From contig NZ_CP055157.1 in assembly GCF_013367775.1 (NCBI RefSeq), forward strand, positions 1,777,001 through 1,841,000: 64,000 bases of DNA. The letters are read 5' to 3'. The notes under the pieces were generated by a model. The model was not told the DNA's origin and made no database searches. It saw only the letters and a list, made by a program, of their open reading frames with translations. Within the stretch, counting starts at the first letter, position 1. Every line of letters starts with the position of its first letter. Position numbers and translations under genes: made by a program. This stretch comes from Microbulbifer sp. YPW1. Lineage in GTDB: Bacteria > Pseudomonadota > Gammaproteobacteria > Pseudomonadales > Cellvibrionaceae. This document shows positions 6,889-29,539 of the stretch, piece after piece.

Positions 6889-6925
6889 GATGGCCCGGCC
6901 AATATTTCGGGGCTGGCCGGGCATC
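6889..6925. terminator. GC-rich hairpin after the AgmX gene
   Basis: GATGGCCCGGCCA at 6889-6901 pairs with TGGCCGGGCATC ending at 6925, giving 12 base pairs with one bulged G. It lies about 55 bases past the end of the leftward motor operon. There is no T-tract, so it may only stabilise the transcript end. Confidence 0.35.
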
Positions 6926-6978
6926 GAAATCGGGGGGGATCTTGAGGAGCTGCCTCTAAACCATGGGGCTGCCGCCCG

Positions 6979-8013
6979 TCAGGACGGCAGGAAGTCGATG
7001 GAATAATTCAAAGTGGATTTCTCCACATTGGCTGCGCCGAAATTGATCAGGCGGATACGCGCCAGTAGCTTGCGCTCCAGATCCGGGCTGTTCAGCTCGC
7101 TACTGACCAGGCTCACCGCAGAAATGGTGCCGTTGGCCTCGATGACCAGCTTCACCGTTACCTTGCCGGCGAGCGTCGGGTCACGGCGCAGGGCTCGGTT
7201 GTAAATCGCAAAGATGGCCCCTTTATTGGCTTCCATGACCTGACGGATGGATTCCTCACCGCGGGTACCGCGCTCGCGACGCGCCTGCTTGGTGCTGGCC
7301 TTGGCAGCTTCTGTCGCTTGCGCCACTTCCACCTGGGTAGTTTCGCGACCTGACAATGCAGAGCCACCCGTATTGCGGCTCAGCTGTCCGGTATTGATGC
7401 CGCCGCTGGATGCCTTGGATTGATCACTGATCAGCGAGCGGTCGATCTTCTGTGCCTTGCTGGCGCCACTGGCGAGGCTGTTGGCACTGGCGACTTCGGA
7501 GACGTCGAGGCTATCGCGCATATCCATCAGGTCATCCTGCAGCTGCATCAGTCCGCTACTCGCTGCTTTTTCGCGAGCCTTGGCCACCTCTGCGGCCGGC
7601 GCCTTCTCGCTAAGCGGTTTCGGTTTTACCGTCTTGATCGGTTCCGGCTTGGGTTTCGGTTTTTCGACCGGCTTCGGTTTTTCCTTTATTGCCTCTTTGG
7701 GTTTTGGCTGCTTCTTTTCCACCGGCTTGGGCTTGGGTTTTTCCACCGGCTTGGGAAGCTCTTTCTTTTCCAGAATTACCCGCGCCAGTTGTGGGGGTAG
7801 CTTTTCCGCCTGTTCCCGGGTCAGTTCCGGCGCCGGAATAAAAGTGAGCAGTGCACCGATTACCACAAATGCGGCCAATCCGCTTTTCAGGTATTTTTTA
7901 AAGCGCTGGTCTTCTTCCTCGGTCGAGGCCCAGGGTAAAACCGAGTTGTAGTAGTGCCACGGCATCAGCGCGGAGCGGCCAGCGGCAGAAGAGTGAGAAG
8001 CGAAAGTCGTCAT
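6979..8013 (-). CDS. AgmX/PglI C-terminal domain protein (TonB-like link of a proton-driven motor)
   Basis: 344 residues. The N-terminal cytoplasmic piece is followed by one membrane helix (about 44-60), then a long Pro/Lys linker (about 85-140, repeated KPKPVEK units) that could span the periplasm as in TonB. After a helical middle, residues about 250-344 (MEANKGAIFAIYNRALRRDP, LAGKVTVKLVIEANGTISAV) match the AgmX/PglI C-terminal domain, related to TonB C-terminal domains. It is the last gene of a leftward operon with one ExbB/TolQ and two ExbD/TolR proteins, so it probably transmits proton-motive work to an outer-membrane or periplasmic partner, likely the TPR proteins encoded upstream. Confidence 0.8.
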   Translation of the reverse strand: MTTFASHSSAAGRSALMPWHYYNSVLPWASTEEEDQRFKKYLKSGLAAFVVIGALLTFIPAPELTREQAEKLPPQLARVILEKKELPKPVEKPKPKPVEKKQPKPKEAIKEKPKPVEKPKPKPEPIKTVKPKPLSEKAPAAEVAKAREKAASSGLMQLQDDLMDMRDSLDVSEVASANSLASGASKAQKIDRSLISDQSKASSGGINTGQLSRNTGGSALSGRETTQVEVAQATEAAKASTKQARRERGTRGEESIRQVMEANKGAIFAIYNRALRRDPTLAGKVTVKLVIEANGTISAVSLVSSELNSPDLERKLLARIRLINFGAANVEKSTLNYSIDFLPS

Positions 8014-8030
8014 ACAGTTGCGCCCCTCCC

Positions 8031-8552
8031 CTATTGACCGGCGGCCGGTGTGGCCGGGTCCTGTGGCGCCGTCTGGGTGACAGCGAGATCGATATCCCGG
8101 TAGTCCGCAGCGGCGCAGGTGTTCATGATCTGTTTAAGCAGCGCGTAGGGTACTTCCTCGTCGCCGAGAATGGTCACCGGGCGCCCCACCGCCTGCTTGT
8201 CTTCCGGCAGGGGTTCGGCGCGGCTGGCCAGGTATTTGAGTTCATCCAGCAGGGGTTTGATCTGCTCCTGATCCGCCGCGATGTCGGTTACTTTTGCGAT
8301 CATTCGGTTGCCCACCAGCAGTTGATCGCCATTTACCCGCACTACGGTGGTGGTCTCCGGTTTTTCGGTGGAGGTTGATTCCGGGAGTGTGATGGTTTTG
8401 TCCGCCTGCAGCACTTCCACATCCGACGAGTTCACCAGCAGGAAGAACACCAGGATGGTAAAAATATCCATCAGGGAAACCAGGTTCAGTTTTGTCTGTT
8501 TATGCCGGCGCTGCTTGCGCCCTTTCAGCTTGCCGCCGATCGTCGCTTTCAT
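8031..8552 (-). CDS. ExbD/TolR family proton-channel subunit (second copy)
   Basis: 173 residues, taken from the ATG at 8552, one base after the upstream ExbD stop (TGATATG), rather than an in-frame start 51 bases upstream that lies inside that gene. A basic N-terminus (KLKGRKQRRHKQ) precedes the single membrane helix with LVSLMDIFTILVFFLLVNSS, including the conserved Asp of ExbD/TolR that carries protons. The rest is periplasmic. With the other ExbD and the ExbB/TolQ gene it would form an inner-membrane proton channel. Two different TolR-like subunits beside one TolQ-like gene resembles the Agl/Glt gliding motor of myxobacteria, which is known to use AglR with AglQ and AglS. Confidence 0.88.
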   Translation of the reverse strand: MKATIGGKLKGRKQRRHKQTKLNLVSLMDIFTILVFFLLVNSSDVEVLQADKTITLPESTSTEKPETTTVVRVNGDQLLVGNRMIAKVTDIAADQEQIKPLLDELKYLASRAEPLPEDKQAVGRPVTILGDEEVPYALLKQIMNTCAAADYRDIDLAVTQTAPQDPATPAAGQ

Positions 8553-8553
8553 A

Positions 8554-9084
8554 TCACTTGCCTGCCAGCTGGTCTTGGGCCTGTTCACCCGGTGCGGGTG
8601 CATCGCCGAGAGAAATCTGAGGAAACAGTTCTGCGTCCACCACCGAAGCCGCTACCACCGCGCGGAACGAGCGCGCGGTATCCATGGCGCTCACCAGGGT
8701 GCGATAGGGCGTGCCGGGCTCAGAGAGAATGACCAGGTCTTTCTTGTCGATATCTTTTTCCCGCAGGCTGCGCTTCACTTCCTGCAATACATCGGACACC
8801 AGCTTGAAATCCGGTTTGCCGTCCCGGTTGGAAATACGCTTTACACGGATTCCCGCCGGATAGTTGATGTCGATGTAATCGGCGCGCAGCACCAGCTCCA
8901 GTTGCCGGTTTTCTTTCTGTTCTTCCACACTGGCGTCGCTCAATCCGGGAAGATTGAGGTTGAGCACAGAAATATGGGAGAACACCATATTCAGCAGCAA
9001 TACGGGTACCAGCACGGTCATCAGGCTCATAAACGAGGTGATGTCCAGATCCGGATCGGTTTCCAGCCTGCGTCGGATAGCCAT
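8554..9084 (-). CDS. ExbD/TolR family proton-channel subunit (first copy)
   Basis: 176 residues. The N-terminus MAIRRRLETDPDLDITSFMS holds the conserved Asp-containing segment of the ExbD/TolR membrane helix, continuing LMTVLVPVLLLNMVFSHISV. The remainder (about 45-176) is a periplasmic domain. It differs clearly in sequence from the second ExbD, so the two are not a recent duplication and probably form a heteromeric channel. It follows the ExbB/TolQ gene by 58 bases on the same strand. Confidence 0.88.
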   Translation of the reverse strand: MAIRRRLETDPDLDITSFMSLMTVLVPVLLLNMVFSHISVLNLNLPGLSDASVEEQKENRQLELVLRADYIDINYPAGIRVKRISNRDGKPDFKLVSDVLQEVKRSLREKDIDKKDLVILSEPGTPYRTLVSAMDTARSFRAVVAASVVDAELFPQISLGDAPAPGEQAQDQLAGK

Positions 9085-9142
9085 GGCTCTCTCTTGTTAT
9101 CTGACTTTTTATCGGATTACGCGTTCGTGTGAGGATGTCCGT

Positions 9143-9835
9143 TTACGCGGGAGTCGCCGCCTTTGCCGCGGGGCGCGCTGCTGCGTCTGCCTTCTGGCCA
9201 CGGGTCAGGGTAATCAGGTTGAGGAACTTCACCCCGGCCATTTCCAGACTGTCGATAATCTCGTTGGTTTTGTTCTGCAGCATGGAGTAGGCCAGCAGCA
9301 GAGGGATCGCAGAGATAAGGCCAAAAGCCGTGGTGTTCATGGCCACGGAAATACTGGAGGAGAGCATGGAGGCTTTCTCGGAGGGGTCGGCATTGGCCAC
9401 CGCGGTAAATGCTGCAATCAGGCCGATGATGGTGCCGAGCAGGCCGAGCAGTGTTGCGATATTGGCGAGGGTAGCCAGGTAGTTGGTGCGCTTTTCCAGG
9501 CGCGGTACCGCTTCGAGAATACTTTCTTCGATGGCCATCGCGATATTCTCATCCTTGCGCGCATGCTGCGCGGTGGAAATGCCGGCGGCTACGAGCTGGC
9601 CCATGGGTGCCTTTTCGTTCTGGGAGAATTTGAGCGCGGCGGCGAAGTTGCGCTGTTGCATCATGGGCAAGATCTGACCGTAGGCGCGGCGGTTGGCGAG
9701 CTTGGCGCGGGACAGGAATACCCAGCGCTCCACTACCAGCACAATACCGATGACCAGTACCAGGGCGATGGGGTACATGAATGGGCCGCCGGTCTGAAAG
9801 AAACGCAGCAGTGTGTTGAAAAATTCCATGGTCAA
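9143..9835 (-). CDS. MotA/TolQ/ExbB proton-channel family protein
   Basis: 230 residues with three membrane helices. They lie near 17-35 (FMYPIALVLVIGIVLVVERW), near 118-140 (LATLANIATLLGLLGTIIGL) and near 165-185. The segment with TLLGLLGTIIGLIAAF and MNTTAFGLISAIPLLLAYSM is diagnostic of the family. The protein is the inner-membrane stator that couples proton flow to movement of a partner such as TonB, TolA or a gliding apparatus. It heads the exbB-exbD-exbD-agmX group and follows two small or TPR envelope genes; the operon appears continuous from about 23150. Confidence 0.9.
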   Translation of the reverse strand: MTMEFFNTLLRFFQTGGPFMYPIALVLVIGIVLVVERWVFLSRAKLANRRAYGQILPMMQQRNFAAALKFSQNEKAPMGQLVAAGISTAQHARKDENIAMAIEESILEAVPRLEKRTNYLATLANIATLLGLLGTIIGLIAAFTAVANADPSEKASMLSSSISVAMNTTAFGLISAIPLLLAYSMLQNKTNEIIDSLEMAGVKFLNLITLTRGQKADAAARPAAKAATPA

Positions 9836-9961
9836 ATCTCCGGGACGTAAAGATTTTTTGTTGTTAAAAAAGAATAAAACCGGCTGCCAGGCACCCGGCC
9901 TTGAAATCGTAATTTGGTTATTTCGCTGGATGGCAGTCGTTGCTGTCGAGCGCTTTGCTTT

Positions 9962-10231
9962 CTACTCTTCGGATTCTTCTGGCTGCAGCAATTCCATTTC
10001 TCGTTTCAGCTCGGAATACTCCTGATGTCGGAATGTATGACTGATTGCATCGGGAATAGTACTTTCAATTTTTTCCAGGCTGTTGGCCTGCTTCCAGGGA
10101 ATGATGTACAACACTTTCGGTTGTTCCTGGCTACCGATAATGGTGGATTCCAGGGTGATGATTTCACCCTCACCATCCTGCGCAGTAGCTGCAGCGGCGC
10201 ATAGTAACAGCAGAATTGGCAATCTTTTCAC
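9962..10231 (-). CDS. small exported protein of unknown function
   Basis: 89 residues. An N-terminal signal peptide (MKRLPILLLLCAAAATAQDG) is followed by an acidic periplasmic peptide with the fragment PKVLYIIPWKQA. I recognise no family. The gene starts 3 bases after the TPR lipoprotein gene stops and ends 127 bases before the ExbB/TolQ start, so it belongs to the motor operon and may be a structural or assembly part. Confidence 0.65.
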   Translation of the reverse strand: MKRLPILLLLCAAAATAQDGEGEIITLESTIIGSQEQPKVLYIIPWKQANSLEKIESTIPDAISHTFRHQEYSELKREMELLQPEESEE

Positions 10232-10234
10232 GGG

Positions 10235-10888
10235 TTACAGCCTCCGTTCCAGGTCCATGATCCAGCCTGCCAGTACTCTGTCTTCCTCTTGTTCCAGTGC
10301 CTTGGCTTCGCGGTAGTGATGCAAGGCCTGTTCCGGTTGGTGCAGGTACAGATCGTAAAGAATTCCCAGATTGCGGTGGGCCAGTGCAAAATCCGGCCAG
10401 CGCGCGAGCGCGTTGCTGTACGCTTCGCGCGCTTCCTCGAAGCGGCCGCGGTCGCGCAACAGTGCTCCCAGGGAGTTCCACGCAAACACATTGTTTTCGT
10501 TGGCGGCCACGGCCTGCTGCAGGCTGCGCTCTGCGGATTCTGGCTGTTCCAGTTTCAACTGAACCTTGGCCAGGTTCAGCCACGCACCGGAAAGTTGCGG
10601 CCACTGTGCAACCACCTGCTGCATGGTGGACTCGGCGGCGACGTACTGTTGCTGGCCAAACTGGGCGCGCGCCTGGGAAATTGCCTGTTGCGCTGCGGCG
10701 GGGACATCTGCGGGCTCCGCCAGGTAGGGGTTGGGTCGCAACACGCGCTCGCCGTTTTCATCCACCAGCGCTGCGGTGGGCTCGGTGGTTTCCAATTCCG
10801 GCGTCGGCGGGTTGCCCGCACAGGCGGCCAGCAACAGCGCGCAGCTGACAGCGGCGGCAATGTGGGCAAAACGTGAGAGTCGTTTCAT
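10235..10888 (-). CDS. TPR-repeat lipoprotein
   Basis: 217 residues from the ATG at 10888, one base after the upstream gene's stop (TGACATG). The lipobox LLLAACAG gives a lipidated Cys near residue 23. From about residue 75 there are three to four tetratricopeptide repeats (for example LSGAWLNLAKVQLKLEQPES, FAWNSLGALLRDRGRFEEA, FALAHRNLGILYDLYLHQPE). The protein is probably a periplasmic scaffold anchored in the outer membrane. It lies between a very large TPR lipoprotein and the proton-channel genes, as in Agl/Glt-type systems, where TPR proteins link motor and surface. Confidence 0.82.
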   Translation of the reverse strand: MKRLSRFAHIAAAVSCALLLAACAGNPPTPELETTEPTAALVDENGERVLRPNPYLAEPADVPAAAQQAISQARAQFGQQQYVAAESTMQQVVAQWPQLSGAWLNLAKVQLKLEQPESAERSLQQAVAANENNVFAWNSLGALLRDRGRFEEAREAYSNALARWPDFALAHRNLGILYDLYLHQPEQALHHYREAKALEQEEDRVLAGWIMDLERRL

Positions 10889-10889
10889 G

Positions 10890-13796
10890 TCAGTAGGCCG
10901 CATCGCTCCACTCCACAGTCGATTCCGGTTTGCGATAGCGCGCCGGCAGCAGGTTTTCCAGGGACGAGAAGCTGTTCTTCACCCACTCGTCGTAGACACC
11001 GTCGGCAGTGCGCTGGACGTTGGCCTCGTGCAGTTCGATGGCCTTCTCCTCGAACGGGTAGGCCTGCTCTTCCAGCAGGATTTCGTACTGTTCGAGCTCA
11101 AGGGCCCCCAATCCGTTGGGGCGCTGGGAATCCATCAGGTCGCGGCTCAGCTGGCGATAGACCTCGGCGAGGCGGAAGTTGGCCGCGGTGGTGAATTCGG
11201 CAATGCCGAATTCCAGCACCTTGCGGTAGTCCGCCACGGTGGCTTCCATGGCCTGTTTCTTGTTTTTCAGGCTCTGCTTGAGCGGCAGGGTAAGGGCCAG
11301 CCGGGCAAAGCGCGCATAACTCTGCTCCGCCAGTTCATTGCGCGCGTAAGCGGCGAGATAGCGGCCGCGCGGTTCTGAAACCTTGTTGCCGGCCAGGCTC
11401 TGAATCCACAGGTTGCGTTCGCGCTGGTTGCCGGATTGTCCGTACAGCGTCACCAGCTGGTACTGGGCCTCTAGATTCTGCAGTGCGGGCTCGCGCCACT
11501 GCCGGGTGTACTGACGGTAGGCATCGATTGCCTGCGAGGTCTTGCCGGACTGCTGGTACAGCTCCGCGGCCATATACAGGGAGTCGCGACGTACCGCAGG
11601 GCTGGGGTCCTTGGCTGCCATGGTCATCAGCTCGCCGGCAGCGGCGTCGGGCATATCCAGTCCCTGATAAATCGCCACCGCTTTCGCCGCCAGCGAAGGT
11701 GTCAGCTTGTGCTCCGGGTAGTGCTGGCGGAAGTCGGCCAGTTCGCTGCGCGCCTGGGGCCAGCGTTGCAGGCGTACCAGCTGGGTAATGGCATCGTACT
11801 GGGCGGTGGCGGCAATGGACGAGCGGCCGCTGTCGCGCACCCGTAACAACAAGGCAATGGCTTCTTCCGTGGGCGCCACGAATTCCATGCTGTCGGTGGT
11901 CAGGTGCACCTGCTTGAGAATGATCTCGGCCTGCTTGTAAATAGAGGACTGCAAGCGGTCGCGGGTGTTCAGGTATTCCGGATCCGTAGAGGCCATACCG
12001 CCGAGCAATTGGGTATAGGCAGTCTCCGCGGCGGCGAAGTTGTCGATCTCGAAATAGCTGTGCCCCAGCAGCATCAGGATACTGCGGCGCTGCTTGGCGT
12101 CGGGGGGCGGTTGCCAGCCCGCGGCTTTTTCCGCCGCGGCAATGGTTTCGGCGTGACGAAACTGCTCAAACAGGTTGTGTGCGGCATCAAGCTGCACCGC
12201 AAGTGCGCGCTGATCCTGCGGCCAGGTATCGGCAAAGCGCAGGCTGGTTTCGGTTTTCCTGTCCAGCCACAGGTTGGCCTGTTCCGGGTGCTTTTCCCGC
12301 TTGTGCATTGCCCCGGCCATCAGGATGGCCGCGTAACCTGCTTCGGTGGCTTCCGCGGGCACCTTGCCGGTTTCCTCGGCAAAGTCCCAGGCCACCCGTC
12401 GGTAAGCGCCAAAGGCTTGCGCATACTGGCCCGCTTCGTTCAGGCTTTCCGCCATCAGGAAGGTAAGCTGCGGGGTTTTTTCGTCGTCCGGGAATGTCTG
12501 GGTGAACTCTCCGTACAGTGCTGCAGCGCTCAGGAAGGCCGCGCGGGAATCCCGCGATGCCTTGGCTGCTGCCTTGGAATTGCCCCTGCTCTTGGAGCTT
12601 TCGAGGGCGAGTGCCTGGGCGCGGGCGTGATCGAATCGGGCCAGTTCCTCCAGCCAGGGTTTCAACTGGGATTTCAGCTGTTCGCGCTGGCCATCGTCCG
12701 CCGCAGCCCAGTACTGGCTGCGGATACCGTAGCGGGTAACAAACGCGCGCTTGGCCGGGATGACCTCGCTGGGAAAATTCCCCTGCTGCAGAATTTCTAC
12801 CGCGCGCACATGCATGTGCGGCGCCTCGTGGCTCTGCGGGTAGCGCTCCACGAATGCGAGAAAGGTCTGTGCACCGTCGCGATAGCGCTCGCTTTCCGCG
12901 TACCAGTCACCGAGACCGCGATACAGCTGGTGGTGGTAGGAGCGGGGTCCGGACTCGGGGGTAAAGGACTCGATCACCTCGGCACCGCCCAGGTAATTGA
13001 AGCCGAGTGCGAGTACACGCAAGGTGTCATCTGCCAGCCGGCGATCGCCTTTTTCCAGCTGATCCAGCGGGCGTGACAGCGGCTGGTTTTCTGCCAGCAG
13101 ATCATCCATCAGAACCAGGAAGGTCTCGCTGGAATCCCGGTAGCGGGCATCCTTGAACTGGCTCCAGCCGAGCATATAGCGTGCGTTGCGTGCAAACGGG
13201 GTATCGCCCTGGGCAAGCACCGCTGCGAAGTCCTGTTCTGCAGCGCGATAATTCTTGCGTCCGAACGCGGCTTCGCCGCGGCGGAATAGCGCCTCGGCAA
13301 TAAACGGCGACTCTGGTGCGGTGGCGACAATGTTTTCTAGCGCCGCCAGCGAACCCTGGGTATTGCCATCCAGGGAGCGTGCGCGGGCCAGTCGATAGGC
13401 GAGGTAGTCGTCGTCTGCGGAGGTCTGCAGTAGTGCTTCGTAATGCCGCACCGCCTCGCCATAGGCCACTGCCATTTCAGGGTTATCTTCCTGCAGCTGT
13501 TCCAGTCGTTCCATATTGAGGTCTGCCAGGCGCAGCTGGATCTGGCGACGGGTCTTTGGATCGGTATTGGAAGCGAGCGCGTTTTCATAGCTCTCGATCA
13601 GTTCCGGCAACTCCACCTTGGGTACGACCACATAGGGCTCGGGTGCGAGGTTGGTTGTCGGCAGGTCCGCCAGGGTGGTGCCGGCCTCAAACTGGCTCGC
13701 ACAGCCGCCCAGCAGTGCGCTGGCACAAACGGCCAGCGCGAGTATTTTTTTATGGGGAAAATTGCGGACGTAATTGCGCGACGAAAGGGACTTCAC
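10890..13796 (-). CDS. large TPR-repeat lipoprotein, 968 residues
   Basis: It starts at a GTG that overlaps the stop of the 716-residue gene (GTGA), showing coupling. The signal peptide has a lipobox (ASALLGGCASQ, Cys near 32). Nearly the whole remaining protein is helical repeats of TPR type, with recognisable units such as AEALFRRGEAAFGRKNYRAA, FARNARYMLGWSQFKDARYR and QPPPDAKQRRSILMLLGHSY. Such a long superhelix would bridge the periplasm. No enzymatic motif is seen. Its place upstream of the TPR lipoprotein and the TolQR-like channel suggests the periplasmic or outer-membrane part of one machine. Confidence 0.82.
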   Translation of the reverse strand: MKSLSSRNYVRNFPHKKILALAVCASALLGGCASQFEAGTTLADLPTTNLAPEPYVVVPKVELPELIESYENALASNTDPKTRRQIQLRLADLNMERLEQLQEDNPEMAVAYGEAVRHYEALLQTSADDDYLAYRLARARSLDGNTQGSLAALENIVATAPESPFIAEALFRRGEAAFGRKNYRAAEQDFAAVLAQGDTPFARNARYMLGWSQFKDARYRDSSETFLVLMDDLLAENQPLSRPLDQLEKGDRRLADDTLRVLALGFNYLGGAEVIESFTPESGPRSYHHQLYRGLGDWYAESERYRDGAQTFLAFVERYPQSHEAPHMHVRAVEILQQGNFPSEVIPAKRAFVTRYGIRSQYWAAADDGQREQLKSQLKPWLEELARFDHARAQALALESSKSRGNSKAAAKASRDSRAAFLSAAALYGEFTQTFPDDEKTPQLTFLMAESLNEAGQYAQAFGAYRRVAWDFAEETGKVPAEATEAGYAAILMAGAMHKREKHPEQANLWLDRKTETSLRFADTWPQDQRALAVQLDAAHNLFEQFRHAETIAAAEKAAGWQPPPDAKQRRSILMLLGHSYFEIDNFAAAETAYTQLLGGMASTDPEYLNTRDRLQSSIYKQAEIILKQVHLTTDSMEFVAPTEEAIALLLRVRDSGRSSIAATAQYDAITQLVRLQRWPQARSELADFRQHYPEHKLTPSLAAKAVAIYQGLDMPDAAAGELMTMAAKDPSPAVRRDSLYMAAELYQQSGKTSQAIDAYRQYTRQWREPALQNLEAQYQLVTLYGQSGNQRERNLWIQSLAGNKVSEPRGRYLAAYARNELAEQSYARFARLALTLPLKQSLKNKKQAMEATVADYRKVLEFGIAEFTTAANFRLAEVYRQLSRDLMDSQRPNGLGALELEQYEILLEEQAYPFEEKAIELHEANVQRTADGVYDEWVKNSFSSLENLLPARYRKPESTVEWSDAAY

Positions 13797-15943: not shown

Positions 15944-15950
15944 GGCGGCC

Positions 15951-16481
15951 TCAGGGGGCGGGCCACTGAACGACGGTAAATTCCGGCTGTTGCTTGCCGC
16001 CGGAATCGGAAATCCGCAATTCGATCACGGCGGGTTCATCGGTCTTGGCCAGTTCCAGCGTGGCGGCGCGTTTGTAAGGCCGTTGTTCTGGGCCGATACC
16101 GGTAAAGAAGGCGGTGATGGTGTGTTCGCCGGATTTGAGGTTGCCCTTGAACAGGGGCTGTATGCCTCCGCGGAACAGAGCCTTTTTCTGGTGATCGGTA
16201 TACAGGTGGGTTTCCACCAGTTTGTTGTCGATATGCAGTTTGACCGAGTCCAGATCAAAGAAGTGACCCACGTCCATGGACAGGTATACCGCCACCTGGC
16301 TCTGTGCCGGGAATATCAGGTCTTCTTCCAGCACCAGCAGGTCCCGGTTCAGTTTCAGCACCTCGCGCTTGAGACTCTCCAGGTCGCCCTCGGGGAAGTC
16401 CTCGCTCTGGGCCGCAGTGCCACCTGCAAAAATCAGGGAAATTAGGGCCAGAATCGGGCCGAGATGACGCGGGGAAAACAT
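15951..16481 (-). CDS. exported protein of unknown function, motor operon
   Basis: 176 residues. The signal peptide (HLGPILALISLIFAGGTAAQ) precedes a short helical segment (DLESLKREVLKLNRDLLVLE) and a beta-rich domain (QVAVYLSMDVGHFFDLDSVK, GEHTITAFFTGIGP). The C-terminal part looks like an immunoglobulin-like or similar beta-sandwich fold, judged only from the strand pattern. It is the first gene after the ApbE gene in the leftward block, with an 8-base gap to the 716-residue TPR gene. Function unknown. Confidence 0.7.
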   Translation of the reverse strand: MFSPRHLGPILALISLIFAGGTAAQSEDFPEGDLESLKREVLKLNRDLLVLEEDLIFPAQSQVAVYLSMDVGHFFDLDSVKLHIDNKLVETHLYTDHQKKALFRGGIQPLFKGNLKSGEHTITAFFTGIGPEQRPYKRAATLELAKTDEPAVIELRISDSGGKQQPEFTVVQWPAP

Positions 16482-16521
16482 GTTGAAACCTTAAACTCCT
16501 TGGTCGCTGGGTGGACGATTA

Positions 16522-16550
16522 TGTCACGATGCCTCGTTCCGGTTGTGACA
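16522..16550. promoter_or_regulatory. inverted repeat upstream of the 176-residue gene
   Basis: TGTCAC and GTGACA face each other across 17 bases, 41 bases upstream of the start at 16481. The spacing is wider than a CRP site. It could be an operator for an internal promoter of the motor genes, or chance. Confidence 0.25.
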
Positions 16551-16560
16551 AAGTTGGCAA

Positions 16561-17580: not shown

Positions 17581-17605
17581 CGTTAATTCTTTTCAGGTAA
17601 TCGCG

Positions 17606-19177: not shown

Positions 19178-19352
19178 GGCTGTTCCGGGATCCCGATAAT
19201 TCGGATTAGTCCGTTTATAAAAATGTGTTGCGGTGCGGCTGCCTGGGATAGCTCACAACTTTTCTGCGTATCGCAAGCAGCATTTCCCCGCAGACTCCGC
19301 ACCAGGGACAAGCGTTACCCACCCCTTACGGAGCACAAAATCTACGAAGTGC

Positions 19353-21926: not shown

Positions 21927-21930
21927 TGCA

Positions 21931-23151
21931 TTATTCCCCCGCACAGTAAACCGCAGCGTCTGCATAGACCTGCTTCAGCTTGTAGCCGTTGCCGGTAAAG
22001 CTGTCGGTCATGCTCGCGATGCGATTGCGGTCTGCGCTGTCTTCTGGTGCGCGCAGGCAGACCTGCTCGAATACTTTGGTGACCTGGCACTGGGCGAAGG
22101 CCTCGCTGTTGGCCAGTTCCCGTCCCATGGACTTGGCGCCATTGCCCGAGCCGGGCAGCGCGCTGCTCCAGCCCAGATGCATGTTTGGTCCCTCGCGCCA
22201 GTAGTTGTCCCATTTGTCATCGGGGATCACGAAACCGTAGGGAAAGGTGGCACTGTTGATGTGGTTTTTGGCCTTTACCCGGGTGCCGGTCGCGGGGTCG
22301 GTATCGCCGCTGCGGTTGTAGTCCAGCTGGCCGTCTTCCCCGGCAGGGTCGTTGTCCACGTCGTACACGTAGTCGTAGTAGGCAAATGCCTGGGCCATCG
22401 GGTCCATACCGCTGTGGCAGCCCACACAGTTGTTCTGGAACACGCGGCTGTCACCACCGGGACTGCGGCTGACATCCTGGCGGATGCGATCCGGTGGGCG
22501 CGATGTATCGTGTACCTGTTCCAGGTCGCGGCACAGGTGATTCATCAGGGTGAAGCGGAACATGGCGCGGTTGGTGCCCGCGTAGAAGAAAGCTTTGGCT
22601 CCGCCTCGTGTGGTCATCACACCGGCAGTCGCATCCCCGGGCAGGCCGGTTACCGATGACTGGGTGTGGCGTTCGAGGGCGGTCTGCAGCGGGTAGCCGC
22701 TCTGCTCCAGAGCGGCATAGTGCGCGTTATCGCTATTGCTGTAGCTGGGCAGCCCGAGGCCGGAAGCACCGGTATAGATGATGTCACCGGAAAGGATTTC
22801 CCGGAAATCCACCTCGTCGCGCACCATGCCGATCACCGTCGCCGTGTAATCGTTTAGCGGGGCGAAGTTGTCCCCATCGCGATTGGTCCAGGGGGTGACC
22901 AGGTTTTTCAGGGTCACATCGTAGAAGGCATCGTTTTCCATCGCCCGGTAGGCTGCCGAACCGGCATTGCCATTGGCGATATCCTCTGCCATCGCCTTGA
23001 GGACATCGACGCTCGGTTTGACTCCGGTGATACGGCTGTGGATCTGCGCGGCCTGCTCTTGCGGATCGGCAACAGCAATTGCACTGAGCGAGGCGCTGAA
23101 ACAGGCGGTCGCCGCGAGCAGCATGCGCGCAGCGGGCGATTTTATTTTCAT
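21931..23151 (-). CDS. exported cytochrome c-like protein
   Basis: 406 residues with a signal peptide ending near residue 28. One haem-attachment motif, CVGCH at 242-246, is followed by SGMDPMAQAF, which resembles the haem segment of planctomycete-type DUF1588/DUF1585 proteins (the CxxCHxxxDPxG-like region). The rest shows no other recognised domain. It also contains the sequence DIIYTGAS (123-130), loosely like an ApbE flavinylation motif. It is the first gene of the leftward block and ends 4 bases before the start of the LamG/cytochrome gene. It is probably periplasmic and passes or receives electrons within this block. Confidence 0.75.
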   Translation of the reverse strand: MKIKSPAARMLLAATACFSASLSAIAVADPQEQAAQIHSRITGVKPSVDVLKAMAEDIANGNAGSAAYRAMENDAFYDVTLKNLVTPWTNRDGDNFAPLNDYTATVIGMVRDEVDFREILSGDIIYTGASGLGLPSYSNSDNAHYAALEQSGYPLQTALERHTQSSVTGLPGDATAGVMTTRGGAKAFFYAGTNRAMFRFTLMNHLCRDLEQVHDTSRPPDRIRQDVSRSPGGDSRVFQNNCVGCHSGMDPMAQAFAYYDYVYDVDNDPAGEDGQLDYNRSGDTDPATGTRVKAKNHINSATFPYGFVIPDDKWDNYWREGPNMHLGWSSALPGSGNGAKSMGRELANSEAFAQCQVTKVFEQVCLRAPEDSADRNRIASMTDSFTGNGYKLKQVYADAAVYCAGE

Positions 23152-23461
23152 GGGCTGGTTCGCGTAAGGTTCTTTACCACGCGGGTAATGCCAGCGCAGT
23201 ATTTTTTATGTCTTGAGACCGGTCACTGATACTAAAGAAAGTGGAGTGATTGGCTAGCGGTAAAAATTTAAACCGTGTTCTGGTTGGCAAAAACCGTGTG
23301 CACCGCTTGAGACAACACGGGTCAACCGAGAGAATCGCACCCATTACGCTTGCCCTGTTATGTGGGACGTTAGTCCAGTTATGGTGCCGCGACGACGGTG
23401 AGTAACCACTGCGAAACGAATAAAAATGCGGTAAGGGCCAAGCCAAATTGAGGGTATTTTC
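23152..23461. promoter_or_regulatory. divergent promoter region, 310 bases
   Basis: This gap separates the starts of the two opposing operons (cytochrome/motor leftward, HzsA-like/porin rightward) and must hold both promoters. An AT-rich near-palindrome CGGTAAAAATTTAAACCG at about 23258-23275 could be an operator. I see no clear -35/-10 pair or CRP site. Confidence 0.5.
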
Positions 23462-26143
23462 TTGAATAAATTCTATACGCTGGCCGGTGGGCTTGCGGCT
23501 TTGCTATTGCTCGCCGGTTGTTCCGGTGGCAGCGGTGGAAGCTCCGGCCTCGGTGGCGGTGATCAGGCTGAGGATCCGGTGGTCGTGGACTACCCGGTAG
23601 TCTATGTTCGTCGCACGCTGAACCGCGACGAAGACGATATGCTGGTGACCAGCGACCTCTATGCGCCCTCTGCCTTCAATCCCGGTGCTGAACTGGTGAT
23701 GCGCGATCGCGCCACCGCCTCGGCCCCCGAGCGTGTGCTTACTGAAAACCTTTTTGTCAGTGATGAAGAGGCCGGTGTCGTGTTCGAGGGCGGCTATGAC
23801 GTAAAAGATCTGGCCGTATCCGCCGATGGCACGCAACTCGCTTTCGCCATGCGTGCGCCGGATATCGAAGGGCTCGACGATGACGAGCAGCCGAGCTGGA
23901 ATATCTGGCTATACGATTTTGAAACCGCGCAGCTGACCCGCGCCATCCAGTCCGACCTGATTGCCGAGGAGGGAGACGATATCGCCCCGGCTTTCCTCCC
24001 GGATGGCCGCCTTGTTTTCACTTCCACCCGCCAGCGTCGCTCACGGGCACTGTTGCTCGATGACAACAAGCCGCAGTTCTCCGCGCTGGCAGAAGATCTC
24101 GACGAGCCCGCCTTCGTGCTGCATGTGATGGAAGCGGACGGCACCGATATCCAGCAGATTTCCTACAACCAGAGTCACGATCTGTCCCCCACCGTGCTGT
24201 TCAATGGCCGCATCCTGTTCAGTCGCTGGGACAATATGGGTGGAGTGGATCGGCTGAGCCTCTACACGGTCAAGCCGGATGGCACCGACCTGCAGTTCCA
24301 CTACGGCTACCACAGCCAGGCCACTGGCACCGGCAGTGGGCCGGACCCGATTCCCGCCGCCTTCAGCAAACCCCAGCAGATGCCGGACGGACGCATACTC
24401 GTCACCCTGCGCGCGCCGGAGGGGATTACCTACGGCGGCGATATGGTGGTGATCGATGCGGAAAACTTTACCGAGGCCTACAGCGAGCCCGAACAGCAGG
24501 GCGTGTTGCAGGGGCAGGAATCCCTGTCCGTCGAGCAGGTGATTACCGACGGCGGCCTGTCACCCCACGGCCTGTTTGCCAATGCCTGGGCATTCCACGA
24601 CGGTACCAGCCGCCTGCTGGTGAGCTGGAGTGAGTGCCGGGTGATCGATCCGGAAACCGAGCTGCCGCAACCCTGCACCGACGAGTGGCTGGCGACACCG
24701 GACATCGTGCCTGCGGATCCCCTCTACGGCCTGTGGATTTACGACTATCGCGAGGGCACCCAGCGTCCGATCATCCAGCCGGTTGAAGGGCAGATGATCA
24801 GCGAGGCGGTCACCGCGGATACCCGCCCGATTGCGGAATTTATCCCCCAGCCGATTCCCGGGATCGATATCGACCGCGACCTGTTCGATGAGGGCATGGC
24901 GATTCTGGATATTCGCAGTGTGTACGATTTCGACGGTGTTGCCGCGGTGGATATAGCGGCGCTGGCGGATCCGCTGCAGACCACTGCCGCAGAACGCCCG
25001 GCGCGATTCCTGCGGGTTGTCAAAGCGGTGGGTGTTCCCGATCGCGATACCCTCGATTTCGATCGCTCCGCTTTCGGTCGCAGCCGCGCCCAGCTGATGC
25101 GTGAAATCATCGGCTATACCCCGATCCAGCCCGACGGCTCGGTGCGGGTTAAGGTCCCGGCGGACATGCCACTGGCTATTTCCGTGGTGGATGCCAACGG
25201 CCGTCGCATCGTCGGTCGCCACAATAACTGGCTGCAATTCCGCGCCGGTGAGATCCGCAAATGCCAGGGCTGTCACAGCGGCGACAGCGAGGTACCCCAC
25301 GGCCGTACCGACAAAGAACCGGAATCCGCGTGGGCAGGTGCGCCCACCAGCGCCGCTCCGTTCGCCAACACCGAGCCGGCACTTACTGCGGATATGGGAG
25401 AGACCATGGCGCAGCTGATGGCGCGGGTGGCCGGCCATCCGGTTCTGGATGGCGACCTGAAATTTGCCGACCTGTGGACCGACCCGGCGCTGCGGGAAAA
25501 AGACCCGAGCAGTGAACTGTTGACCAGCGATCTGCCGACCCCGGCGCCCACCAGTCTCGCCTGCCAGAGTGAGTGGACTGCGGATTGCCGCACCGTCATA
25601 CACTACCCCGAGCATATCCAGCCGATCTGGGATCTGCCGCGGGAGATCACCGATGCCATGGGCAACGTGATCGATGATCAGACCTGTACCAGTTGCCACA
25701 GCAACCGCGATGCCGCCGGCATGGCACAGGTGCCGCCGGGACAGCTGGACCTGAGCGCCTCCCAGTCCGGGGTGAACACCAATTTCAGCACCTCCTATGT
25801 GGAGCTGATCTTCGATAACCCCACCCAGGAGCTGCGCGACGGAGCGGTACAGAATGTGCTTGTACAGGATACCGATGACGACGGTAACCTGGTGTTCGAG
25901 ACCGATGAGGACGGTGAGCTGATTTTGGATGCCGATGGCAACCCGATTCCTGTTATGGTTACCGTCGACATTGAGCGGATCATGGATACGGCCGGCGCCA
26001 ACGCCAGTCGCTTCTTCCGCGTCTTTGAAGCGGGCGGCGTCCACGCAGGTGCGCTGTCCGCAGCGGAATTGCGATTGATTTCAGAGTGGCTGGATATCGG
26101 TGCGCAGTATTACAACAACCCCTTTGATGCACCGGTCAACTGA
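23462..26143 (+). CDS. HzsA-like lipoprotein with two haem c motifs
   Basis: 893 residues from a TTG at 23462 with GAGGG nine bases upstream. The lipobox LLLLAGCSG makes it a lipoprotein. Residues about 45-480 show repeated beta-propeller strands of PD40/TolB type (DLAVSADGTQLAFAMRAPDI, IAPAFLPDGRLVFTSTRQRR, SPTVLFNGRILFSRWDNMGG). The C-terminal part has two CxxCH haem sites, CQGCH at 601-605 and CTSCH at 742-746. This layout matches proteins annotated as related to the hydrazine synthase alpha subunit HzsA, which are common outside anammox bacteria and have no proven function there. It heads the rightward operon opposite the cytochrome/motor operon. Confidence 0.82.
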   Translation: MNKFYTLAGGLAALLLLAGCSGGSGGSSGLGGGDQAEDPVVVDYPVVYVRRTLNRDEDDMLVTSDLYAPSAFNPGAELVMRDRATASAPERVLTENLFVSDEEAGVVFEGGYDVKDLAVSADGTQLAFAMRAPDIEGLDDDEQPSWNIWLYDFETAQLTRAIQSDLIAEEGDDIAPAFLPDGRLVFTSTRQRRSRALLLDDNKPQFSALAEDLDEPAFVLHVMEADGTDIQQISYNQSHDLSPTVLFNGRILFSRWDNMGGVDRLSLYTVKPDGTDLQFHYGYHSQATGTGSGPDPIPAAFSKPQQMPDGRILVTLRAPEGITYGGDMVVIDAENFTEAYSEPEQQGVLQGQESLSVEQVITDGGLSPHGLFANAWAFHDGTSRLLVSWSECRVIDPETELPQPCTDEWLATPDIVPADPLYGLWIYDYREGTQRPIIQPVEGQMISEAVTADTRPIAEFIPQPIPGIDIDRDLFDEGMAILDIRSVYDFDGVAAVDIAALADPLQTTAAERPARFLRVVKAVGVPDRDTLDFDRSAFGRSRAQLMREIIGYTPIQPDGSVRVKVPADMPLAISVVDANGRRIVGRHNNWLQFRAGEIRKCQGCHSGDSEVPHGRTDKEPESAWAGAPTSAAPFANTEPALTADMGETMAQLMARVAGHPVLDGDLKFADLWTDPALREKDPSSELLTSDLPTPAPTSLACQSEWTADCRTVIHYPEHIQPIWDLPREITDAMGNVIDDQTCTSCHSNRDAAGMAQVPPGQLDLSASQSGVNTNFSTSYVELIFDNPTQELRDGAVQNVLVQDTDDDGNLVFETDEDGELILDADGNPIPVMVTVDIERIMDTAGANASRFFRVFEAGGVHAGALSAAELRLISEWLDIGAQYYNNPFDAPVN

Positions 26144-26146
26144 ACA

Positions 26147-26998
26147 ATGAACAGGCAGCCCGGAAACAGGATTTCCAATTTGGCGCTATTGCTGGCAGGA
26201 CTCTTGAGTGTTTCCCTGGCCCAGGCGCAGACAGACACGGAAGAACAGGCAAGCGGAGAAACCCCGGTAACCGAGAGTTTCTCCGCACAGCAGTTTGGTG
26301 ATCGCGCACCGCAGCAGCTCCCCTTCGACACCGAAAAAGTATTTGTGGGTGCTGAATTCCTGAACCTGTATACCGGCCCCGGGCGCGGATATGTCATCGA
26401 CCAGGTGGTGGAATACGGCGAGCCGTTATGGCTGTTGAAGCGCCGCACCGACTGGGTCAAGGTCATGACCCGCACCGGCAAGATGGGCTGGGCAAAAATT
26501 GCCGACCTGGATGCGGTGTACGGTGCGGAAGGTGAACGGGTGGTGGTACCCGCCCCCGGCGTAGATGACGCCCGCGACCGCGGCGTGCGCTTCGGCTTTA
26601 CCTACGGTGACTTCGAAGGTGCGAATTCGCTGGGGATTTCACTGGGTTACCGCTTTACCGGCAATCTCTCCGCGGAGCTGCGCGCTGCGCAAACCATCGG
26701 TGCCTATTCCGATAGCCAGACCTACCAGGTCGCTCTGTTACACAAGCCGTTTCCGGAATGGCGGCTCTCGCCGTATTTCATGCTGGGTACCGGGATCAAT
26801 ATCACCTCGCCCAACGCCACCATCGTCGCCACGGAAGACCGCCAGGACACCACCATGCTCAGCGGCATCGGCGTCACCACCCACTTGTCCCGCCGCTTTG
26901 CCCTGCGCGCGGAAGTTGCCAATCACTACCTGCTCACCTCGCGGGAAAATAATCAGGAGATAGTCGAGTGGAAACTGGGCTTCGACGTATTCATGTAA
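26147..26998 (+). CDS. SH3-domain plus outer-membrane beta-barrel protein
   Basis: 283 residues beginning 4 bases after the HzsA-like gene. A signal peptide ends near residue 28 (VSLAQAQ). Residues about 60-125 form a bacterial SH3-like domain (FLNLYTGPGRGYVIDQVVEY, WVKVMTRTGKMGWAKI). From about 145 to the end, alternating strands (GVRFGFTYGDFEGANSLGIS, SAELRAAQTIGAYSD) and the terminal LGFDVFM, which ends in an aromatic-rich strand, indicate an eight-strand outer-membrane barrel. It is likely a peptidoglycan-contacting outer-membrane component of the same apparatus. Confidence 0.78.
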   Translation: MNRQPGNRISNLALLLAGLLSVSLAQAQTDTEEQASGETPVTESFSAQQFGDRAPQQLPFDTEKVFVGAEFLNLYTGPGRGYVIDQVVEYGEPLWLLKRRTDWVKVMTRTGKMGWAKIADLDAVYGAEGERVVVPAPGVDDARDRGVRFGFTYGDFEGANSLGISLGYRFTGNLSAELRAAQTIGAYSDSQTYQVALLHKPFPEWRLSPYFMLGTGINITSPNATIVATEDRQDTTMLSGIGVTTHLSRRFALRAEVANHYLLTSRENNQEIVEWKLGFDVFM

Positions 26999-27630: not shown

Positions 27631-27678
27631 CCGCAGTGAATTTCACAGAAAAACAACTGAGAAAACCGGAGAATTCCA

Positions 27679-28164
27679 ATGCGTAAACTGATTGCCGCTC
27701 TCTGCACCAGTGCCGCCCTGCTCGCGGGCGCCCCCGCTTCCGCCAATGTCCCGGCAGCGGATTTCACCCTCGCGTCCCTGAAAGACGGCAACCTCAAACT
27801 GAGCGAACAGCGCGGTGAAGTGATCATGCTGAACTTCTGGGCTTCCTGGTGTGGTCCCTGCCGCGAAGAGATGCCGCTGCTCAATGACCTGCACGCGCGC
27901 TACGAGCCCGTGGGTTTCCAGGTATGGGGTGTCAATGTCGATGCCAACCGCGAAGATGCGCAGGCGATGCTGAACAAGATTCCGGTGGAGTTTCCGGTAC
28001 TGTTCGACTCCCAGAGTGATGTGAGCAAGCTGTTCGGCGTGGAAGCCATGCCGAGCTCCGTATTCATCGATCGCGACGGCAAGGTGCGCTACGTGCACAA
28101 GGGCTACCGCAGCGGCGACGAGGCGGAATACAAGAAAATCATCAAGGAACTGATCCGGGAATAA
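27679..28164 (+). CDS. TlpA/ResA-like periplasmic thiol-disulfide oxidoreductase
   Basis: 161 residues with a signal peptide (about 1-22). The active site WASWCGPC places the redox Cys at 58 and 61. The cis-Pro region (EAMPSSVFIDRDGKVRYVHKG) and the EEMPLLNDLH helix fit TlpA/ResA. These proteins reduce or oxidise periplasmic thiols, for example the CxxCH cysteines before haem attachment. Since the block encodes at least three proteins with CxxCH motifs and a Cys-rich DUF4266 protein, a maturation role is plausible. Confidence 0.9.
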   Translation: MRKLIAALCTSAALLAGAPASANVPAADFTLASLKDGNLKLSEQRGEVIMLNFWASWCGPCREEMPLLNDLHARYEPVGFQVWGVNVDANREDAQAMLNKIPVEFPVLFDSQSDVSKLFGVEAMPSSVFIDRDGKVRYVHKGYRSGDEAEYKKIIKELIRE

Positions 28165-28167
28165 GCC

Positions 28168-28395
28168 ATGTACAAGCGCGCGCTTCTGCTGTTGCCACTT
28201 TTGTTGCTGGCAGGCTGTGAAACCATGATGCCGGATCCCTGGGTAAAGCCCTATGAGCGGCATTACCTGGCGGACCCGATCATGAGCTTTGAACGGGATC
28301 CGGTGGCAGCGGGTTATATGAACCATGTGTACGAAGCGCGTGAGGCTGCGCGGGGCGCGGAAGGCGGTTCCGGGGGCGGTTGTGGCTGTAACTGA
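28168..28395 (+). CDS. DUF4266 lipoprotein
   Basis: 75 residues starting 4 bases after the TlpA-like gene. The lipobox LLLLAGC puts the lipidated Cys at 18. The body PWVKPYERHYLADPIMSFER is the DUF4266 signature, and the tail ends GGGCGCN with two cysteines. DUF4266 genes usually sit next to DUF3570 genes, as here (the DUF3570 gene starts inside this one), and often near apbE. Function unknown; it may be an assembly factor for the DUF3570 protein or be acted on by the TlpA-like protein. Confidence 0.88.
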   Translation: MYKRALLLLPLLLLAGCETMMPDPWVKPYERHYLADPIMSFERDPVAAGYMNHVYEAREAARGAEGGSGGGCGCN

Positions 28396-29539
28396 TCTTA
28401 AGAAACTGCTCGGCCTGCTGGCTGTTGCACTGTTCGCGACAACTACAAACAGCGCGGTTTTGCCAGAAGAGCGCGCCGACACCATGTATCACGCCTACAG
28501 TGGTGGCGGTGTCACCATTGATGGCCCATCAGTGCTGGTGCGCAAGAACATTGGCAACAAGGTTTCCCTTTCGGCCAATTACTATGTGGACATGATTTCC
28601 GGTGCCTCCATCGATGTGCAGGCCACTGCCAGTCCCTACAGTGAGCAGCGCGACGAGTTTTCCCTGGGCGCCGACTACCTGGTGGAAAAAACCACCATGA
28701 GTCTCAGCTACACCAATTCCAGCGAAAACGACTACCAGGCGGAGACCGTCGGATTTGGCATCAGCCAGGATTTCTTTGGTGATCTCAGCAACCTGTCCAT
28801 GCGCGTCAGTCTCGGCAGCGATGATGTGATGCGCAACGGCGACGAGAACTTTCTCGAGCAGGCCGAGCACCGTCGCTACTCTCTCGGCTGGAGCCAGATT
28901 CTCACCACCAAACTGATTGCCGAGGTCAGTGTGGAAACGGTGGCCGATGAAGGCTTCCTGAATAATCCCTATCGCAGTGTGCGCTACCTGGACCCAAACT
29001 CCGGCACCGGTTTCAGTTACCAGGCCGAGCTGTATCCCACTACACGCAACAGCGATGCAGTGGCGTTGCGCGCGAAATACCGCTTGCCCTACCGCGCCGC
29101 GATCAAGAGTGAATATCGCCGCTACGCGGACAGCTGGGGGATCAGTTCCGACAACCTCGAATTCCGCTATACCCATCCGCTGGAATCCGAAAACCTGATT
29201 CTCGAAGGCAAACTGCGTTACTACAAGCAGGACGGGGCGGACTTTTACAGTGACCTTTTCCCCTACCTGAACGCCACCAATTTCCGCGCCCGCGACAAAG
29301 AACTGAGTGATTTTTCCAGTACCGCCATCGGCATCGGCGCCTCTTACCAGCTCCCCGATCGCTGGGCACTGTTTAATCGTCGGAATACCGTCAATCTCTA
29401 CTGGGATTATGTGCTGTTCGACTACGACAATTTCCACGATGTGCGCGTGCACAACAGCGGCGATTACCTCCCCGGCGAAGAGCCCACCTACAGCTTTAAC
29501 GCCCATGTCGTGCGACTGTTCTGGTCAATGTGGTTCTAA
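28382..29539 (+). CDS. DUF3570 outer-membrane protein, candidate flavoprotein
   Basis: 385 residues from the GTG at 28382, with GGGGG upstream, overlapping the DUF4266 gene by 14 bases. The signal peptide ends near residue 24. Residue 70 onward reads D-M-I-S-G-A-S (S73-S76), a fair match to the ApbE target pattern Dxx[S/T]GA[T/S]. The remaining sequence is rich in amphipathic strands (FSLGADYLVEKTTMSLSYTN) and ends FWSMWF, typical of an outer-membrane barrel. Family DUF3570 is uncharacterised. With ApbE, TlpA and DUF4266 nearby, an FMN-bearing outer-membrane redox protein is my inference. Confidence 0.85.
   Translation: MAVTDLKKLLGLLAVALFATTTNSAVLPEERADTMYHAYSGGGVTIDGPSVLVRKNIGNKVSLSANYYVDMISGASIDVQATASPYSEQRDEFSLGADYLVEKTTMSLSYTNSSENDYQAETVGFGISQDFFGDLSNLSMRVSLGSDDVMRNGDENFLEQAEHRRYSLGWSQILTTKLIAEVSVETVADEGFLNNPYRSVRYLDPNSGTGFSYQAELYPTTRNSDAVALRAKYRLPYRAAIKSEYRRYADSWGISSDNLEFRYTHPLESENLILEGKLRYYKQDGADFYSDLFPYLNATNFRARDKELSDFSSTAIGIGASYQLPDRWALFNRRNTVNLYWDYVLFDYDNFHDVRVHNSGDYLPGEEPTYSFNAHVVRLFWSMWF

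Follow-up and report, generated by a model that had tools for sequence, protein, structure and literature searches.

The sequence analysed here is a window of 64,000 nt from the one-contig, 4.58-Mb genome of Microbulbifer sp. YPW1 (G000:C1:1777001-1841000; G numbers denote the genomes of our surveys, L numbers the fetched loci and C a contig). Positions 6979-29539 of this window hold a block in which a motor unit, in the order s176, TPR716, TPR968, TPR222, s90, TolQ, TolR1, TolR2 and AgmX, lies next to a redox unit, which consists of a Tat-exported protein (the Tat protein), cyt870 and cyt406 on one strand and an HzsA-like protein, SH3bb, bb220, TlpA, DUF4266 and DUF3570 on the opposite strand. 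As evident from the locus comparison, ApbE is variably attached, either to the motor unit or to the redox unit. These data are best read as a proton-driven motor across the envelope that can take different cargoes, of which the redox module is one, and we consider it probable (about 60%) that motor and redox cargo are the two modules of one functional system. Functional coupling of the two modules, taken by itself, is very likely, and it is fairly likely that the redox module performs real electron transfer.

Results

Redox genes occur in genomes that carry the motor

Five proteins (TPR968 as the motor marker of our surveys, the HzsA-like protein, the Tat protein, DUF3570 and cyt406) were searched for in 145 genomes of the order. 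Weak matches were dropped, which reduced the motor count from 57 to 54 genomes (G048, G111 and G070 removed), the HzsA-like count from 41 to 39 (G038 and G078) and the cyt406 count from 35 to 33 (G016 and G081). The DUF3570 count fell from 54 to 35 upon removal of 19 genomes with a best match below 125 bits, many of them motorless. Tat protein matches cut by contig ends were retained (G126, at 22 bits, G062 and G031). With these thresholds, the motor was present in every genome that carried an HzsA-like gene (39/39), the Tat protein (33/33), a strong DUF3570 match (35/35) or cyt406 (33/33). Additionally, the 19 families of the order with cyt406 all fell within the 26 motor-bearing families. 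A survey of 369 genomes of the class, in which a threshold of more than 100 bits lowered the motor count from 98 to 88, revealed the motor in 48 of the 50 genomes with the Tat protein. Independent occurrence of the two operons in most genomes, which the original prediction had named as grounds for giving up the idea of a joint machine, was seen in neither survey.

In one of the two motorless genomes with the Tat protein, G145, this protein was represented by no more than a 112-residue fragment at the end of a contig. The other, G177, is a single contig with full-length cyt406, cyt870 and Tat protein and an HzsA-like gene that is split into two short frames. SH3bb, bb220, TlpA, DUF4266 and DUF3570 were missing from this locus, and DUF3570 was missing genome-wide (the other four were sought at the locus only). 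We found three clear MotA/TolQ relatives in G177, with 25-31% identity to the window's TolQ and no adjoining TPR motor genes, beside a further sub-threshold match. Because its HzsA-like gene is split and the partner genes are gone, the sole well-assembled motorless genome appears to carry a decaying redox unit, in what is a single case.

The two units are linked through four operon junctions

The motor and the HzsA-like gene were at most 20 kb apart in 23 of the 39 genomes of the order survey, against a chance estimate of about 1% for a 4-Mb genome. Similarly, the motor and the Tat protein gene lay within 25 kb in 25 of the 47 genomes of the class that hold both, with the window's own genome excluded. 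Within 166 loci (L069-L234, some overlapping within one genome), the two halves were joined head-to-tail on the same strand through four junction types, with gaps that depend on mechanically chosen start codons. The Tat protein gene led into s176 in 28 loci, with ApbE in between in 12 (11 of them Microbulbifer) and directly in 16 (gaps of -3 to 189 bp). DUF3570 led into s176 and the motor in 9 loci, directly in 5 (-58 to 72 bp) and with ApbE and/or barrels between them in the rest. AgmX was followed by an HzsA variant in 6 loci (46-235 bp) and by cyt406 in 3 Rheinheimera/Arsukibacterium loci (-27 to 18 bp). L233 (G178), which has an s176-like frame after DUF3570, was excluded from this count, with no TPR968 found on its contig. 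In G004, G057, G118 and G083, where the redox module lies on a separate contig or at a distance of 110 kb, we also observed ApbE at the head of the motor operon.

The motor and its divided pair of TolR subunits

The TolQ/TolR/TolR/AgmX motor of the original prediction was confirmed by the profile searches, in which the MotA_ExbB model, the ExbD model (twice) and the AgmX/PglI C-terminal domain model were passed above their cut-offs. More specific models were not: AgmX scored 46 bits against the GltG equivalog, well below its cut-off of 650, and TPR222 scored 31.9 bits against the GltE model NF033758 (cut-off 225). The original gene inventory was correct for the genes it named, all of which are intact open reading frames at the coordinates assigned to them and nearly all of which contain the domains that it assigned, and it missed s90, whose gene sits in an apparent intergenic gap. 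Profile searches matched no family model to s90 and no Pfam or NCBIfam model to s176.

The two TolR-like subunits differ at the trans-membrane Asp. This residue was D in all 67 TolR2 sequences, whereas the same position in TolR1 was N in 52, S in 13 and D in 2 of 67 sequences (the loci are partly non-independent). An Asp in both subunits, as in the Agl core, is thus not the pattern of these families (67 sequences each). In Myxococcus, by comparison, AglQ and AglS are both described with this residue, and the published account leaves open whether they pair as hetero- or homodimers (PMC9389320); the D28N substitution in AglQ is reported to abolish proton conductance (PMC3858216). The simplest reading is that TolR1 and TolR2 would form an obligate heterodimer with a single active site.

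A second, paralogous motor is present in the window's genome at C1:541223 (L089:1-15923 = G000:C1:531000-550900), where it adjoins an 1828-aa adhesin-like giant frame with isopeptide-forming and DUF11 domains. The other two surveyed genomes of the window's genus, G015 and G144, contain this second-motor type and gave no HzsA, Tat protein, DUF3570 or cyt406 match in the order survey. Non-redox motors in L078, L105, L106 and L108 adjoin genes that by eye are MoxR-like AAA and VWA-like. These arrangements fit one motor type with interchangeable cargoes. L108 also contains an SH3_3 protein (sub-threshold, 22.2 bits, cut-off 27) with another small protein encoded after it, and L078 is similar.

Redox-linked motors were scattered over a TPR968 tree of 76 rows, in which supported branches force at least 7 label changes; this is a quick tree with long-branch warnings, from which 7 of 11 Microbulbifer rows and rows shorter than about 800 aa were excluded. 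The scatter contradicts a single dedicated motor clade for the redox module, and because of it we regard the redox unit as not bound to one motor lineage.

Composition and conservation of the redox unit

Gene set and gene order recur above chance across many genera. By the host names of the relatives, these include Microbulbifer, Alteromonas, Marinobacter and Shewanella, all of which have strains in culture. Among the best 80 of 469 Tat-protein loci, in which close relatives are over-represented, cyt870 was present in 79, cyt406 in 77, the HzsA-like gene in 73, SH3bb, bb220 and TlpA in 71 each, DUF4266 in 68 and DUF3570 in 65. Contig or locus ends probably account for part of the misses. The same locus contained TPR968 in 26 of the 80 and ApbE in 34. 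One complete redox unit (L148) comes from a record titled as a Klebsiella pneumoniae metagenome-assembled genome, which is probably mislabelled or mixed.

The haem-motif proteins and the HzsA-like dihaem motif of the original prediction were reproduced, giving five CxxCH motifs in the window: two in cyt870, one in cyt406 and two in the HzsA-like protein. These numbers are kept in 87 of 89 cyt870 relatives of at least 650 aa, in all 89 cyt406 relatives of at least 380 aa and in 84 of 88 HzsA-like relatives of at least 700 aa. The thiol motifs were similarly stable, with WCxxC in 86 of 88 TlpA relatives and the terminal CxC in 81 of 83 DUF4266 relatives. The window's DUF3570 contains one strict flavinylation site (SGAS), and two [ST]GA[ST] sites were found in 2 of 40 relatives of at least 350 aa. 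Of the two barrels, bb220 clearly passed the OMP_myx_plus model, whereas SH3bb reached 27 bits, below the cut-off of 60; among the best 120 of 724 matches, the bb220 homologues have generic barrel names only. Variants of the HzsA-like protein include one in L231 that carries three haem motifs in all and has an MtrC-like match below threshold (17.4 bits, cut-off 30). Another, in L104 (12356-16735), is a 1459-aa protein with a PKD domain and one haem motif, encoded immediately after AgmX.

Among the relatives compared, no other protein of the block is as well conserved as the Tat protein; it is 95% identical to its counterpart in Microbulbifer sp. HZ11, and the twin-Arg motif (TRR or SRR) is kept in 90 of 93 relatives. 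Of 398 genomes sampled across the phylum, 8 contained a member of its family, all 8 from the window's class. The original prediction had described this protein as DUF1501-like. A comparison of 59 relatives with Pfam at E<=10 yielded only Tat-signal or chance-level families, with DUF1501 (PF07394) matched by 0 of 59 and the DUF1552 model unmatched. No NCBIfam model matched the Tat protein, and PF07394 had no match at E<=0.001 anywhere in the window's genome. When its profile was compared with that of genuine DUF1501 proteins (11 rows, of which one or more have a doubtful frame; repeated with an enriched query side), the probability was 8-15%, compared with less than 1% for the reversed control. 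As no family model supports the DUF1501 identity and the profile score is weak, we do not accept it and retain it as a lead only. DUF1501 and DUF1552 are reportedly the two gene families found beside the planctomycete PSCyt/PSD cytochromes.

Features of the window and neighbouring genes

Scans of positions 6500-24000 for promoters (3 sites against 5.1 expected) and for terminators (17 against 17.7) were uninformative. The VWA-RCC1 gene immediately downstream of DUF3570 was considered as a further part of the system and rejected, since it had no match at E<=1e-10 in the fetched loci L069-L234; this is weak evidence, as many of these loci end near DUF3570.

Table 1. Genes of the motor and redox units and their neighbours, with window coordinates and the matches on which each assignment rests.
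Gene	Description	Position	Strand	Support
PAS-LuxR	two tandem PAS-LuxR regulators	4897-6628	-	downstream of AgmX
AgmX	AgmX/GltG-like energy transducer (TonB/TolA-like), 344 aa	6979-8013	-	NF033768, 66 bits (cut-off 40)
TolR2	AglQ/S-type, trans-membrane Asp46	8031-8603	-	PF02472, 58.6 bits
TolR1	AglQ/S-type, Ser20 at the Asp position	8554-9084	-	PF02472, 38.9 bits
TolQ	TolQ/AglR-type motor subunit	9143-9835	-	PF01618, 103 bits
s90	89 aa, GTG start, signal-peptide-like start (by eye)	9962-10231	-	kept in relatives' motor loci
TPR222	TPR lipoprotein, GltE-like position	10235-10903	-	TPR models; lipobox by eye
TPR968	giant TPR lipoprotein, GltD-like position	10890-13796	-	TPR_6; tol_pal_ybgF, 77 bits (cut-off 90)
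TPR716	TPR protein, GltC-like position	13793-15943	-	TPR_19, 21.6 bits (cut-off 25); conserved position
s176	first gene of the motor operon	15951-16481	-	at motor operon start in most loci
ApbE	FAD (flavin adenine dinucleotide):protein FMN (flavin mononucleotide) transferase	16561-17580	-	PF02424, 273 bits
Tat protein	Tat-exported protein, 523 aa	17606-19177	-	44-95% identity across the class; no family model
cyt870	lipoprotein with two haem motifs and a Laminin_G_3 (lectin-like) domain, 870 aa	19353-21965	-	PF13385, 68.9 bits; two CxxCH
cyt406	monohaem-motif exported protein, PSD2/DUF1585-like C-terminus	21931-23151	-	PF07624, 21.4 bits (below cut-off 25.8)
HzsA-like	dihaem lipoprotein, beta-propeller repeats	23462-26143	+	PF18582 (HZS_alpha), 51.4 bits; PD40
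SH3bb	SH3 domain and outer-membrane beta-barrel	26147-26998	+	PF13505, PF06347
bb220	outer-membrane beta-barrel, 220 aa	26968-27630	+	TIGR04565 (OMP_myx_plus), 184.8 bits (cut-off 60)
TlpA	TlpA/ResA-like thioredoxin, WCGPC	27679-28164	+	PF00578 (AhpC/TSA-Redoxin), 98.6 bits
DUF4266	small lipoprotein, terminal GGGCGCN	28168-28395	+	PF14086, 83 bits; overlaps DUF3570 frame
DUF3570	barrel, predicted FMN site DMISGAS	28325-29539	+	PF12094, 143 bits
VWA-RCC1	VWA and RCC1-repeat protein	29910-32897	+	immediately downstream of DUF3570

Discussion

Comparison with known systems

A core complex of AglRQS with GltC, GltD, GltE and GltG, encoded in one region and of unknown function, was reported in gammaproteobacteria by Luciano et al. 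2011 (PMC3169522; PMC3858216), and in Myxococcus the same motor is described as modular, with a Glt cargo for gliding and an Nfs cargo for the spore coat (PMC3858216). The window's motor resembles these Agl-Glt and Agl-Nfs systems in that one TolQ-like and two TolR-like subunits, an AgmX/GltG-like protein and TPR proteins at the GltC, GltD and GltE positions are encoded in one region, an assignment made at family level. An additional gene is described for the Agl core region; the window's motor region has two extra genes, s176 and s90, either of which may correspond to it. Additionally, an outer-membrane barrel pair is encoded nearby, one of them an OMP_myx_plus protein; in Myxococcus, the two outer-membrane barrels GltA and GltB are part of the motor complex, in which they associate with the TPR protein GltC and depend on AglQ for their incorporation (PMC4488436). 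There are also clear differences. The window adds a haem, flavin and thiol cargo, whereas the word 'cytochrome' does not occur in the main text of PMC3169522, and one of its TolR-like subunits has no proton-carrying Asp, unlike AglQ and AglS.

The flavin part of the redox unit is a module that has already been described, in which DUF3570 is flavinylated by ApbE in Chlorobium, DUF4266 has a conserved terminal CXC and 316 clusters lack DsbD (PMC8238504). ApbE, DUF3570, a thioredoxin-like protein and DUF4266 are all present in the window. In contrast to the published module, they lie here within a nine-gene set with the HzsA-like protein, barrels, cytochromes and the Tat protein, next to a motor, and the main text of that paper contains none of the words 'gliding', 'TolQ', 'hydrazine' and 'GltJ'. 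The original prediction had regarded the combined machine as undescribed. The combination of motor and redox genes does appear to be so, in a literature search that left subscription papers and preprints outside its range; its parts are known, and the novelty does not extend to the flavin submodule.

Two further likenesses were more limited. In the planctomycete-type PSCyt/PSD cytochromes of the PVC phyla, which adjoin two families of genes of unknown function (PMC5615132), we found a counterpart to the window's haem protein with a PSD2-like end and its Laminin_G_3 haem protein, which adjoin the Tat protein. In the window, however, these domains are split over two smaller genes, and the Tat protein matches neither the DUF1501 nor the DUF1552 model. 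With hydrazine synthase alpha (PDB 5c2v), the middle haem domain of the HzsA-like protein aligned (E 6.8e-6 overall), and two flanking stretches, propeller and C-terminal, followed in the same order although neither was significant singly. The HzsA-like protein scored 39 bits against the hydrazine synthase equivalog cut-off of 800, the residue after CxxCH differs, and no Pfam or NCBIfam model of another hydrazine synthase subunit matched in the block. Hydrazine synthesis was therefore rejected as the function.

Proposed mechanism

In the mechanism that we propose, TolQ and the asymmetric TolR1/TolR2 pair would be powered by the proton motive force. AgmX (GltG-like) would transmit this energy to the periplasm, from where the TPR proteins at the GltC, GltD and GltE positions would relay it to the outer membrane. 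The motor-driven AgmX and the TPR scaffold may act there on the two barrels and on the HzsA-like lipoprotein with its propeller, which together could serve as the docking platform of a putative redox complex. Because bb220 belongs to OMP_myx_plus and the Myxococcus barrels GltA and GltB bind GltC (PMC4488436), this analogy suggests that SH3bb and bb220 may meet TPR716 at a docking point between the modules. ApbE would place FMN on DUF3570, and TlpA and DUF4266 would provide periplasmic thiol couples, so that electrons might be exchanged along a presumed path among these couples, the DUF3570 FMN and the haems. The Tat protein is the likely catalytic or substrate-binding part, to which cyt870 would add a lectin-like domain. 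Electrons, the Tat protein and cyt870 would meet on the substrate. That the substrate is a glycan at the cell surface is the least certain step, and a surface polymer in this role is doubtful. The motor may serve in moving, pulling or opening the substrate or the complex. Gene content, motifs, co-occurrence, operon fusion and a single case of decay are what the data show directly, whereas the physical complex, the electron path and the surface location are proposed. As a tentative possibility, this would be a new class of envelope machine, in which a motor of the Agl-Glt/Nfs type, driven by the proton motive force through a TolR heterodimer whose asymmetry leaves it one proton-carrying Asp, carries an outer-membrane redox enzyme complex and combines mechanical work with haem, flavin and thiol electron transfer on a surface substrate.

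Weighing of the alternatives

Several observations weigh against a single system. The HzsA-like gene is missing in 15 of the 54 motor genomes of the order survey and the Tat protein in 40 of the 88 of the class survey, so that the co-conservation proposed as a check in the original prediction holds only in the direction from redox genes to motor. The motor without the HzsA-like gene is also the reason why we describe the combination as a module added to a motor; the earlier view of motor and cytochrome/flavin genes as one block is supported in part, by their co-occurrence and the four fused junctions. Weak matches were present in motorless genomes (HzsA in G038 and G078, cyt406 in G081 and many for DUF3570), and the Fisher p-values of the containment are tiny but blind to relatedness. 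The motor and the HzsA-like gene were more than 20 kb apart or unlinked in 16 of 39 genomes, mostly on different contigs, with distances of 3.1 Mb in G066 and 110 kb in G057. The strict flavinylation motif [ST]GA[ST] was found in 16 of the 40 DUF3570 relatives, most of the others having SSAS or SAAS; because the position of the site is kept with these changes, flavinylation is likely in the window and uncertain in many relatives. Finally, polysaccharide breakdown is disfavoured as the common function because the hosts of the Tat protein include Marinobacter, Sedimenticola and a tubeworm symbiont.

The motor genomes that have no HzsA-like gene, together with halves that are unlinked on one contig or far apart (G066, G057, G004, G118 and others), would be expected of two independent systems of large marine gammaproteobacterial genomes, brought together by shared ecology, chance clustering or hitchhiking. 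This explanation is very improbable in view of the 145 genomes without any clear redox gene outside motor genomes, the four junction types with overlapping or short gaps, the shift of ApbE to the motor operon when the halves separate and the decay of the redox module in motorless G177. Hitchhiking in particular is a hard explanation because different junctions unite the same two gene sets. Alternatively, the haem and thiol proteins could be assembly or stability factors with structural cofactors, and the motor could serve gliding, adhesion or coat transport. A precedent is the cytochrome c TfcP of a myxobacterial surface machine, which is reported to be an unlikely electron carrier that aids calcium binding by an adhesin (PMC8833165), and TlpA-like matches also lie beside some motors outside redox loci (L072, 29% identity; L078, 23%). 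We consider this unlikely, since most loci retain the five haem motifs, WCxxC, the terminal CxC and DUF3570 as a set, and ApbE lies nearby or in the motor operon in 34 of the best 80 loci, an ensemble that resembles a redox chain.

Dihaem lipoproteins, barrels and an FMN site, as well as the third haem motif and MtrC-like match of the L231 variant, would also suit extracellular electron transfer, in either direction, between the cell and an insoluble partner, and the motor would then merely move the conduit over the surface. The window's five haem motifs are few for this role and none stands in a multihaem array, and many of the hosts are aerobic marine heterotrophs; such a function is decidedly unlikely. 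It is very unlikely that the block serves reductive metal (iron) acquisition, in which a surface metal complex would be reduced and the motor would drive uptake in the manner of ExbBD-TonB. The 25 DUF3570 clusters reported with a VIT1 iron transporter (PMC8238504) and the sub-threshold TonB C-terminal match of AgmX (21.6 bits, cut-off 27.1) speak for it, but the barrels are small (220-283 aa) and Pfam revealed no TonB-dependent receptor or metal transporter in the window's block, the recurrent extra families of its relatives having been judged by eye.

Implications

A redox module carried as one of several interchangeable cargoes by a proton-driven motor thus remains the reading that best accounts for these loci. 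Across the order, the motor is accompanied by the HzsA-like redox gene in 39 of 54 motor genomes. The division of the trans-membrane position between Asp in TolR2 and mostly Asn in TolR1 bears on the question, raised in PMC9389320 for Myxococcus, of whether AglQ and AglS form a heterodimer.

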